Source: Armatimonadota bacterium | GTDB taxonomy: Bacteria > Armatimonadota > Fimbriimonadia > Fimbriimonadales > Fimbriimonadaceae | Length of the DNA: 64,000 bases | Assembly (NCBI GenBank): GCA_022563855.1 | Contig: JADFMN010000010.1 | Span: forward strand, 1 to 64,000 | Direction: 5' to 3' | Part shown: piece after piece, positions 57,099-62,323 of the stretch | How positions within the stretch are numbered: position 1 is the first letter of the stretch | Layout: each line of letters starts with the position of its first letter | Notes under the pieces: model-generated | The model's input: the letters and a program-made list of their open reading frames with translations, nothing else | Database searches by the model: none | What the model was told of the DNA's origin: nothing | Position numbers and translations under genes: made by a program

Positions 57099-57845
57099 CT
57101 ATGGTTCGAATTCAATCTGTTGCGGCGCGAATACCTCGACGTCGACGCCTTTGCAGTAGTGGACGAGATCAGGCGGGCCGGACTTGGTGATGCCGAGCGC
57201 GGCGGTCAGCGACTCGTCGCACTCCAGGCACTCGGCCGTTTGAATCGGATACGGCTTGTGCCAGACGCGGCCGGTCATCAGCTTGTCCCCTTTCTTCGCA
57301 AACAACAGATACCGCTCGAAGATCCAGAACTCAAGAGTGCCCGGTGATGCCTCGAAGACGTCGCCGAACTCACCCATCCTTACTTGACACTTCGCGCCGC
57401 CGGGCGGAGGCCGGAGCCGCTCAGACTCGTACGCAAGCCCGTGTCCGTCGTCGTCGATCGACATCTTGGCAAGCGTGTATGTCAGTCCGAACCACCAGCG
57501 GGCAAAGCGCACTGCGAAGAGGTTTGCAGCGTCGAGCGAGAAGAACCACACGCCTGGTGATCCGCTCTCGTCCGTGACGTACGTGCGCACGTTCGTCTCG
57601 TGGAACGCGTTCGCTCCAGGTATTTCTGGAAGCCACGCGAAGCGTATCCCGTTCATTGTAAACAGCACGAGCCCAACGTACGCCTTCCCCTCATACGTCT
57701 CTACCGTCAGCCCATCGGGCAGCAGCGCTTGCATTTCCGCTGCGTCGGCTTCCCAGTGCAGAAAACTCAAGTGCCGCCAAGTGTGAAACATCGCTGGACT
57801 GCGGTCGGGCCTGTCTCTTAGGGCGAGCAATGCTTCGGTCTGCAT
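57099..57845 (-). CDS. DUF2071 (YqjF-like) protein
   Basis: 248 residues, cytoplasmic. DUF2071/YqjF motifs: HTWRHLSFLHWEADAAEMQA, LLPDGLTVETYEGKAYVGLV, NAFHETNVRTYVTDESGSPG, and GVWFFSLDAANLFAVRFAR. The fold resembles acetoacetate decarboxylase, but no activity is established. AAGGAG 5 nt before ATG 57845 gives a firm start. Only 10 bp separate it from the methyltransferase stop upstream, so the two genes are probably co-transcribed. Confidence 0.9.
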   Translation of the reverse strand: MQTEALLALRDRPDRSPAMFHTWRHLSFLHWEADAAEMQALLPDGLTVETYEGKAYVGLVLFTMNGIRFAWLPEIPGANAFHETNVRTYVTDESGSPGVWFFSLDAANLFAVRFARWWFGLTYTLAKMSIDDDGHGLAYESERLRPPPGGAKCQVRMGEFGDVFEASPGTLEFWIFERYLLFAKKGDKLMTGRVWHKPYPIQTAECLECDESLTAALGITKSGPPDLVHYCKGVDVEVFAPQQIEFEP

Positions 57846-59755: not shown

Positions 59756-60127
59756 CTAGTCGTCTTTATCCCCTCTGAACATGAACAGCGCGAAGAACGA
59801 CCGTCCGTGCGCAAAGATCCAGTAGCCGATCTCGACAAGCCACACGAGCGGCGGATACGACAACAGGCGCGCGAACCAACCCCAGCCGACGCGCTCCAAT
59901 ACGAACAGCGTTGCCCGTCCCGCCTTCAGCACACGGCCGTCGTTCGTCACGACGTGGACGGCGCGCTCGCACGCTTTGAAAATATCTGACGTCATCGGGG
60001 GCGTCGGCGCCTCTTGATACGGCGCGGATTGGAAAACGCGCTGTGTGTCTTTTCGCCTGGCCCAGGCGACCATGCGGCGTCACAGCCCTCATCCGCCGTC
60101 CCAAAGAATCCAGTGCCGGTCGTCCAT
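59756..60127 (-). CDS. DCC-family thiol-disulfide oxidoreductase with two in-frame TGA codons (putative UxxU selenoprotein)
   Basis: 123 residues if TGA is read through. Start ATG 60127-60125 shares its A with the pxpC stop (TGATG). The sequence MDDRHWILWDGGUGLURRM, then VAWARRKDTQ and APYQEAPTPPMT, matches the DCC family (DUF393), whose signature is DxxCxxC near residue 10. Here D10 is present, and the two cysteine positions, 13 and 16, are both TGA (60091-60089, 60082-60080). No other in-frame stop occurs; the rest (AVHVVTNDGRVLKAGRA, YPPLVWLVEIGYW) is intact family sequence. TGA is a normal stop in neighbouring genes, so general reassignment is excluded. Selenocysteine is the simplest reading. 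A conventional annotation would start at 60073 and lose the redox site. Confidence 0.8.
60053..60069 (-). promoter_or_regulatory. candidate bacterial SECIS hairpin
   Basis: On the minus strand TCGCCT-GGGCC-AGGCGA: a 6-bp perfect stem and a 5-base loop starting GG. It starts 10 nt after the second in-frame TGA, so the loop begins at +17, close to the spacing of the E. coli formate dehydrogenase SECIS. Bacterial SECIS elements need a G early in the apical loop, which is satisfied. Pairing was read by eye, not computed. Confidence 0.55.
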
Positions 60128-61008
60128 CAATGCCCGCTAACCAACAAGCTTATCAGCTTGAGCTGCGAGGACCGTCGAAGTTCGTCCTCGCCCCAAATCT
60201 CCTGTGCCGCCTCGCAGGTCGTCCGCTCGAAATAAACGGCAGCGCCAGCCATGAGCTGCCCTAGCCGATCCAGGTCCGCACGAATGATCGTGCCGAGCTT
60301 GCGGTAGCCGCCGATTGTCGGGCCATCCGGTCCGTGGATCATGATAGTGCCATCTTCCGAAGCCTGAATCGAGCCGAACACCGACGGCTCGCTGATCTCC
60401 GTAGCGGGAGCAGAAGCAACCGGCGTACCTCGGAGACGCAATCCGACGCGGTTGATCTCGCGTGTGACCTGGTACTGACCGTGCAGCGCTTCGTCTGGGC
60501 CGATGTAGCGCAAACGTCTGCTCGTCATCGAGGCGGGTTCGTCGGCAAGTGAGGTCGGCTGAGCAGCGCTCCGCGTTTCGGCGCTGCAAAGCACATCGCC
60601 GGAATCGACGATCGTGCCCGACGCGCTTCCGAGAATCGGCTTGGCGCACCAACCCCCGGGGGCTGCAACGTACGTCCGCAGACCGACGACCGGCGGCCCG
60701 ATCTCCACGCGGTCTCCTTTCCGCAGTTGCAGAAGCGACCGGGCTGGATACGTCTTTTCGTCGACCGATACGTCCCGCGCCCCGCCGACCACTGCTATCG
60801 CACCCGCTTCGAGCGCTTCAAACTCAAGCGTTCCAAGCGCGAACTCGATCGAGGGCGCACCCAGGTCGTTCCGCACCAGGGCGTTTGCCAGCGCAAAAGA
60901 CTCGCGGTCGAAAGCGCCTCCCGGCGGGACGCCGTGCTTCCGTCTGCCAGGCCGACCGGCGTCTTCCAGCGACGCGATCCCGATCATTCGCCCGATCTCA
61001 ATCTTCAC
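60127..61008 (-). CDS. pxpC: 5-oxoprolinase subunit C (biotin-dependent carboxyltransferase-like)
   Basis: 293 residues, cytoplasmic. PxpC/KipA family: LEDAGRPGRRKHGVPPGGAF at the start, EFALGTLEFEALEAGAIAVV, LRTYVAAPGGW, RLRYIGPDEAL, and IMIHGPDGPTIGGYRKLGTI. With PxpA and PxpB it opens the 5-oxoproline ring with ATP to give glutamate. GTG start overlaps the pxpA stop (GTGA). Its own TGA overlaps the next gene's ATG, so the DCC-family gene is translated from the same message. Confidence 0.92.
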   Translation of the reverse strand: MKIEIGRMIGIASLEDAGRPGRRKHGVPPGGAFDRESFALANALVRNDLGAPSIEFALGTLEFEALEAGAIAVVGGARDVSVDEKTYPARSLLQLRKGDRVEIGPPVVGLRTYVAAPGGWCAKPILGSASGTIVDSGDVLCSAETRSAAQPTSLADEPASMTSRRLRYIGPDEALHGQYQVTREINRVGLRLRGTPVASAPATEISEPSVFGSIQASEDGTIMIHGPDGPTIGGYRKLGTIIRADLDRLGQLMAGAAVYFERTTCEAAQEIWGEDELRRSSQLKLISLLVSGH

Positions 61009-61679
61009 GCCCTAACCTCATAGCCGGCGTCAGACAGAGTGCGCAGCACGTGCTCTGCGATCGCAACGCAGCCTGGAGTGTCGCCGTGGACGCAAATTGA
61101 GTCAACCCGCCGGGCCAGGCGCAAGACCTGTGCTGCGATCTCATCATGGCTCGAAAGAACGGCCCCGCTCTGCGATCTGGCGACGAGTATTCCGTCCGAA
61201 TCGTACGCGCGATCGGCAAAACCCTCGCGAATCAGCCGAACGCCAGCGACCCGCGCTATTTCTTCATGGTGCGTGCCCGGCATTCCGAGCAACGGCTCCT
61301 TGCCCGATGACAAAAGAGTGGCCACCGCATCCGCCGCGAGGCCGGGAACGATCGTGCCGTTGTACAGCGCGCCGTGCGGCTTGACGTAATCCCACTCTGC
61401 TACCTCCAGTTGATCCACAAGGCTTGATAGCAGATCGTCGCGCTCCTCTTTGCTTGTGATTCTCAAGGGAGTGCGCCCCATCCCTGCGCGATCCGGCACA
61501 CCGGGGTGCGCCCCGACCCTTACCCCTGCCGTTATGCACTTCGCGACCGTTGCCATCGTAAGATCGACGGAGCCCGCGTGCGCGCCGCAGCACACGTTCG
61601 CGCTCGTGGCTATTCGCAGCAGCTCGCCGTCGAAAGCAAACCCCTCGCCGACGTCCACGTTGATGTCGATCACCTTCAC
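61005..61679 (-). CDS. pxpA: 5-oxoprolinase subunit A (LamB/YcsF family)
   Basis: 224 residues. LamB/YcsF signatures: VIDINVDVGEGFAFDGELL, SANVCCGAHAGSVDLTMATV, GVRVGAHPGVPDRAGMGR, YVKPHGALYNG, and SICVHGDTPGCVAIA. Members bind and phosphorylate or open 5-oxoproline in the PxpABC complex. Slightly shorter than the usual ~245-250 residues, with a compact opening, but all motifs are present. GTG start in a GTGA overlap with pxpB; GGAGAGAGG precedes it. Confidence 0.93.
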   Translation of the reverse strand: MKVIDINVDVGEGFAFDGELLRIATSANVCCGAHAGSVDLTMATVAKCITAGVRVGAHPGVPDRAGMGRTPLRITSKEERDDLLSSLVDQLEVAEWDYVKPHGALYNGTIVPGLAADAVATLLSSGKEPLLGMPGTHHEEIARVAGVRLIREGFADRAYDSDGILVARSQSGAVLSSHDEIAAQVLRLARRVDSICVHGDTPGCVAIAEHVLRTLSDAGYEVRA

Positions 61680-62323
61680 AGCCTCTCTCCTTGCAGGCTC
61701 TTATAATCGCGCAATCCGATCGCCCTGAATGCGACCCGATCTCCGGCGCTGATCGGAAAGTAATCCTCCGACATGTTCACGATTTCCAGAGGCGTGATGC
61801 CCAGCAGCCTCCAACCGCCGGGTCTTCCGCCGGGGTAAATGCCGGTCTGTCGCCCCGCTACAGCGACCGCTCCGTTCGGAACCATGAGCCTCGGGGCAGC
61901 CAGCCGCCCAAGTCCCGCGATCTGCGAAGGCAAGTAGCCCAAATACGGAAACCCAGGCGAAAACCCGACTGCGTAACACGTGTATTCGACCGACGTGTGG
62001 TGTCGCACCAGATCATCTGGCGATAGATCAAGCTCGCTGGCGCTCGACTCTAAATCCTCGCCCAAGTCGTAGCAGACCGGCACTTCGTGCAACTTTCCCA
62101 CAACCCCCTGCTGATAAGGTGTGGATTGTTCCAGCGCTCCCTGAAGGGCTTCGAGGTCAAACTCGGATGGATCGACGTAAACTCCGAGCGTATCGTAAGA
62201 AGCGCTTACCTCCAGAACGCCGGGAAGGTTCAGCCGCTCGACTCTTGCGGCGACGACGAACGCCGGCGCAAAGTCGATGTCGCGTACGATGAACGCAGCG
62301 TCGCCGAGCGGCTCGATCCTCAT
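61676..62323 (-). CDS. pxpB: 5-oxoprolinase subunit B (KipI-like)
   Basis: 215 residues. PxpB/KipI family: [17 protein letters not shown] at the start, [33 protein letters not shown] then [15 protein letters not shown], and [19 protein letters not shown]. First gene of the operon pxpB-pxpA-pxpC-DCC, all with overlapping start and stop codons. TAAGCT stands six bases before ATG 62323 with no Shine-Dalgarno, so the operon message is probably leaderless. Divergent from dut by 29 bp. Confidence 0.93.

Follow-up and report, generated by a model that had tools for sequence, protein, structure and literature searches.

The 64,000-nt stretch of DNA analysed here (the window) carries on its minus strand, at 59756–60127, a predicted selenoprotein gene of the DCC1-like family (PF04134/DUF393) in which two in-frame UGA codons occupy the catalytic cysteine positions. 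A hairpin directly downstream of them is real and, judging by its behaviour among relatives, very probably a bacterial SECIS element. We consider it highly likely that this one hairpin serves both UGA codons sequentially, giving a DCC1-like redox protein with Sec-x-x-Sec at its active site. The wider proposition also appears likely to us, namely that a near-invariant 17-nt SECIS programs two Sec insertions at two spacings in an uncatalogued diselenide family which occurs in several phyla and may have spread between them by gene transfer.

The gene and its product

The predicted CDS extends from an ATG at 60127–60125 to a TAG stop at 59758–59756 and, when TGA is translated as U, specifies 123 residues with putative Sec at positions 13 (UGA1, 60089–60091, minus strand) and 16 (UGA2, 60080–60082, minus strand). 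These correspond to the first and second Cys of the CxxC motif; the sequence reads WDGGUGLURR, with UxxU exactly where the family has CxxC. With TGA read as Cys the protein matched PF04134 at 59.6 bits (cut-off 27.8) over profile positions 1–108 of 113, and this was the sole Pfam family matched. One PF04134 gene, the present one, was found in the genome from which the window derives. Across 31 sequences the protein downstream of the UGA codons is conserved through the C-terminal part. The window protein fitted none of the NCBIfam models, and the 31 members gave only two stray weak matches; searches by sequence against solved structures returned only weak unrelated matches, and tblastn against plasmids returned none.

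In the AlphaFold model (pLDDT 85.8) the motif follows strand 1 and precedes helix 1. The top Foldseek rows include glutaredoxins, PDI domains and GSTs, all of them weak (best E 0.13); these proteins have the thioredoxin fold in common. The window protein shares its domain and catalytic positions with the DCC1-like thiol-disulfide oxidoreductases (PF04134, DUF393) and differs from the CxxC proteins among them in having predicted Sec at both Cys positions. Its role is likely that of a thiol-disulfide or diselenide oxidoreductase, since a Sec-x-x-Sec active site would make a diselenide possible; presumably it acts on some cellular substrate.

The same genome encodes a tRNA-Sec (anticodon TCA; UCA in RNA), SelA, SelB and SelD. 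The SelD gene (L187, C4:338766–339668) has an in-frame TGA of its own, in CAGUASKLGP, and SelD is probably a second selenoprotein of this genome. Sec at this SelD position is known, appearing as UxxK in the table of a recent review, of which part was available (PMC13188914).

Geometry and folding of the hairpin

Behind UGA2 (60082–60080) come 10 nt (CGCCGCATGG) and then the predicted SECIS hairpin (TCGCCTGGGCCAGGCGA; 60053–60069, minus strand), an arrangement which the original prediction had described correctly, as it had the GG at the start of the loop. It had drawn a stem of 6 bp with a 5-nt loop, and these are present, but the stem is one G-C pair longer, consisting of a 5′ arm (60069–60063) and a 3′ arm (60059–60053) which form 7 bp around a GGC triloop (60062–60060). 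The feature is placed by its fold, by covariation, by RNAalifold and by the contrast between UGA and CxxC genes. The triloop lies 17 nt from UGA2 (16 nt if the 5-nt loop is taken) and 26 nt from UGA1; the stem begins after 10 and 19 nt, respectively.

In the available portions of the review, the bSECIS model has a G in the first two loop positions and an apical loop 16–37 nt from the UGA (PMC13188914). The window element shares with this model the location of a stem-loop within the CDS behind a UGA, the G-start loop and the distance range. Measured against the values that we applied (loop of 3–9 nt, stem of 4–16 bp, energy of at most −7.5 kcal/mol), the hairpin falls inside in stem and loop size and in energy; the G at the loop start, which had been anticipated originally, and a distance of 16–37 nt hold for either TGA. 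The Escherichia coli element, in the parts of the sources at hand, is a 17-nt stem-loop 11 nt downstream of UGA (PMC8659212; 17 nt also in PMC11431864). The geometry at UGA2 is close to this, with a 17-nt stem-loop starting 11 nt behind the codon, whereas the bulged U described for E. coli (PMC8659212) is not seen in the 7-bp stem of the window. The window hairpin differs from known bSECIS elements in following two UGA codons nine nt apart and in having a sequence nearly fixed across phyla.

RNA folded from the stem base onward formed exactly this hairpin (−10.6 kcal/mol for a 30-nt fold; z −2.30), with 8 of 200 shuffles equalling it. For the hairpin alone, under an energy rule without dangling ends, the value is −9.8, which passes a limit of −7.5 and narrowly misses one of −10. 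A loose SECIS test (stem of at least 6 bp, energy of at most −7.5, G in the first two loop positions, loop start at 16–37 nt) was passed behind 117 of the 1806 TGA triplets of the window, counted on both strands and in any frame, and a strict one (at least 7 bp, at most −10, loop at 16–18 nt) by 9 of them. Synonymous recoding of the window gene equalled the stability of the hairpin in 11 of 1000 draws. By its own sequence, then, the hairpin is only moderately above chance; the strong evidence for the predicted element is comparative. Scoring with covariance models, as had been proposed, brought no gain: the Rfam families gave no match at gathering score and, close to the site, just two chance-level matches to unrelated families, with none to any SECIS model that Rfam may contain.

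Occurrence among relatives

The class to which the window belongs comprised 113 genomes (the order-level set being the same 113), of which 102 carry PF04134. The gene contains TGA in four of these: the window (UxxU), G003 (UxxU), G005 (CxxU) and G002 (UxxC). A search of the phylum (291 genomes) gave a match in at least 152 and, among the matches listed, added G211 (CxxU). A genome collection was scanned with one degenerate UxxU pattern, which returned 40 stretches; 28 of them have a DCC1-like frame, and all 28 are UxxU. These loci are labelled as Planctomycetota, Proteobacteria, Deltaproteobacteria, Myxococcota, Chloroflexi, Thermomicrobiales, Actinomycetota, Binatota, Brocadia and Armatimonadota, where individual labels may be wrong because nearly all are metagenome bins. 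The pattern required GCnTGGGY and thereby fixed the loop along with some of the 5′ arm, leaving the 3′ arm unconstrained; among the UGA members which the scan did not return, the window itself lying outside it, 10 of 11 have at least four pairs.

For the group around G316, a profile search of 377 genomes yielded 41 matches; two TGA codons occur in 16 of them, one in 3 and none in 22. In the group around G309, 6 of 400 genomes matched, three of these with two TGA codons, and in that around G291 3 of 392 did so, two of these with two. Altogether 39 distinct UGA-bearing relatives from several phyla were assembled (33 UxxU, 5 CxxU and 1 UxxC), and in none of the 39 does TGA occur elsewhere in the domain. 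They were compared with 37 CxxC relatives, made up of 33 with at least 110 bits in our own profile plus four from the G309 and G291 groups; weaker rows were dropped before the count, and the class and phylum CxxC matches are represented by the part that was fetched.

SelB exceeded the cut-off in 22 of 26 tested UxxU scan genomes and not in the other 4, several of which are incomplete. The 26 derive from the 28 loci, with L075 omitted as belonging to the same assembly as L060 and L078 entered as G003. SelB was also over the cut-off in G002, G008 and G211, and not in G003, G005 and G037; G005 has a SelB-like stretch below it.

Conservation and covariation

The hairpin occurs in the same register with at least four pairs in 38 of the 39 UGA-bearing relatives as against none of the 37 CxxC relatives, which have three at most. 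Contiguous pairs counted from the triloop in fixed register number nine in 6 sequences, eight in 13, seven in 11, six in 5, five in 2, and four and one in a single sequence each. By motif type the hairpin is kept in 33/33 UxxU, 4/5 CxxU and 1/1 UxxC genes. The triloop is GGT or GGC in 35 relatives, GAT or GAC in three and GCT in one, and the energy in fixed register is −7.5 kcal/mol or lower in 33 of 39, with 6 missing this value.

For covariation 38 sequences were used (L191 was left out). Among the cells 90.1% pair, and five of the eight stem pairs show changes on both sides, so that the compensatory changes which the original prediction had proposed to look for were indeed found. Double-change cells number 20, where shuffling gave 5.4 on average; none of 500 shuffles attained the covariation score, and structures slid along the alignment gave at most 44.7% pairing and 10 double-change cells. 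RNAalifold predicted the seven inner pairs unaided. These results support the SECIS reading, and we put no number on independent events, as kinship can inflate shuffle tests and few forks of the tree are resolved (20 of 68 have starred support).

The inner stem covaries at the expense of the protein. The change from GCC/AGG to GCT/AAG replaces Arg by Lys in L065, L076 and L094, and in L159 GTC/AGA replaces Ala by Val. At 28 of 32 loci synonymous recoding matches the real stability in no more than 50 of 1000 draws, the exceptions being L063, L080, L088 and L135. The last of these (G211, a CxxU gene from the phylum of the window) is also the one homologue with TGA from which the family hairpin is absent, its own fold being unremarkable; the stem that the original prediction would have expected behind every such TGA is thus kept in 38 of 39. 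L135 may use another element or may reflect a recent change.

A close CxxC relative, L192 (G745), keeps the 5′ half and the loop (GCCTGGGCC) and has lost the 3′ half. It looks as if a Sec gene had here reverted to Cys.

A probable single element for two UGA codons

We propose that SelB, with GTP and Sec-tRNA-Sec, would bind the GG-start loop and that the same hairpin would be used twice, Sec being delivered at the UGA at 60091 and then, three codons later, at the UGA at 60082. The product would be a DCC1-like protein with Sec-x-x-Sec in place of Cys-x-x-Cys. Since the stem is 19 nt ahead when the ribosome reads UGA1, it should still be folded when UGA2 is reached. One hairpin most likely serves both codons because it is kept in genes with a single UGA and because a second, independent one could not be fitted in: any element for UGA1 with its loop at 16–37 nt would overlap the hairpin. 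The suggestion of a shared element, which had been put forward as unusual, has therefore gained ground, the register being the same in UxxU, CxxU and UxxC genes alike.

In the tree, starred forks join CxxU genes to neighbouring UxxU genes (L178 to L161, L163 and L165; L048 to L179 and L182), as expected if a UGA had been lost and the element kept. The sole UxxC gene, L049, is a weaker witness because its frame is broken at an eight-G run, possibly through an assembly slip.

An unlikely alternative is that the hairpin is a SECIS element for UGA2 only, with UGA1 relying on some other signal or on an alternative fold of this stretch, or being read inefficiently. The geometry at UGA2 is, as far as the source at hand describes it, near that of E. 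coli (PMC8659212), with UGA1 nine nt further away, and single-UGA forms are mostly CxxU (five) and rarely UxxC (one). There is, moreover, a candidate for such a different fold. In naked window RNA which includes the upstream bases a rival structure is slightly more stable (−12.6, 40 nt), and its loop starts with G 21 nt from UGA1. The lowest probability among the inner five pairs of the family hairpin rises from 0.30 in RNA that contains UGA1 to 0.66 in RNA starting immediately behind UGA2 and to 0.97 when the 10 nt that follow UGA2 are masked; under the same three settings it is at least 0.5 in 30, 32 and 30 of 38 relatives. A 56-nt stretch folded as a whole likewise prefers another structure and is unremarkable in stability (z −0.57). 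The more stable alternative of which the original prediction had warned thus exists in the naked RNA, but it is not conserved and, for all its better energy, its covariation does not rise above shuffles; we rejected it as a functional element. The family hairpin, in turn, is kept in the UxxC gene and stands in the same register in 33 of 33 UxxU members, and the 26 nt separating it from UGA1 falls within the 16–37 nt given in the available text of the review (PMC13188914). These observations argue against a hairpin that serves UGA2 alone.

That the gene is a pseudogene with two nonsense mutations and a chance hairpin is very improbable. UGA does also serve for normal termination here, as in the upstream CT_A_B gene, and SECIS-like hairpins of the loose kind are found behind the 117 window TGA triplets noted above; however, 33 distinct sequences, drawn from several phyla, have TGA at the same two positions, the catalytic cysteines, and nowhere else in the domain, the protein stays conserved beyond them and the hairpin covaries. 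Reassignment of TGA to another amino acid everywhere, such as Trp or Gly, is scarcely credible: it would accommodate two TGA codons within one conserved frame, but the neighbouring gene stops with TGA, all 39 relatives have the codon at the catalytic Cys positions only and the genome has full Sec machinery. Both readings were rejected as contradicted by the comparative data.

Relation to known selenoproteins

A review of May 2026 tabulates 119 prokaryotic selenoprotein families or subfamilies, and Table 1, in the part of that source available, has no entry for PF04134 or DCC (PMC13188914). Our literature search, outside of which most subscription journals lie, found nothing tying selenoprotein or selenocysteine to DUF393, PF04134, COG3011 or the DCC1-like/DCC family, and likewise nothing on a SECIS element with two UGA codons. 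With no such entry in the table, no such paper in the literature searched and no fitting NCBIfam model, we call the family uncatalogued; DCC1-like (PF04134) is probably a selenoprotein family to be added to the catalogue of 119. Standard gene calling, for which the TGA codons are stops, would end the gene early or start it again further on.

Proteins with two Sec residues are uncommon. According to the accessible sections of the same review, the vast majority of selenoprotein families have one Sec and a small subset two to three, and known UxxU selenoproteins include a Prx-like thiol:disulfide oxidoreductase (PF00578), the metal-binding protein NF041115 and an FmdB-family protein (TIGR02605) (PMC13188914). 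These resemble the window protein in having two Sec in UxxU and belong to different protein families.

As a natural example of a single SECIS element for two UGA codons, the present family would be unusually clear. It occurs naturally in UxxU, CxxU, UxxC and CxxC forms, and almost all those that retain a UGA have the hairpin at the same position; the question of one element for two codons is therefore directly testable by swapping variants. If sequential use is true, bacterial Sec decoding would tolerate two registers from one element.

Gene neighbourhood

Not far from the selenoprotein gene, and separated from it by a D12-class methyltransferase gene, is a DUF2071 gene (57099–57845, minus strand); a DUF2071 gene also adjoins the CxxU gene in L048. 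As a general operon partner DUF2071 was rejected, being present only at the window and L048 among the listed UGA loci, many of which extend about 1.5 kb per side. Clustering a wider set of neighbours brought up mainly antisense shadows of the selenoprotein gene.

Upstream, CT_C_D, LamB_YcsF and CT_A_B genes (60127–62323, minus strand) run straight into the selenoprotein gene, a trio which we take to resemble the 5-oxoprolinase set pxpB-pxpA-pxpC. The start codon of the selenoprotein gene shares bases with the stop codon of CT_A_B (TGATG), an arrangement suggestive of translational coupling at this site.
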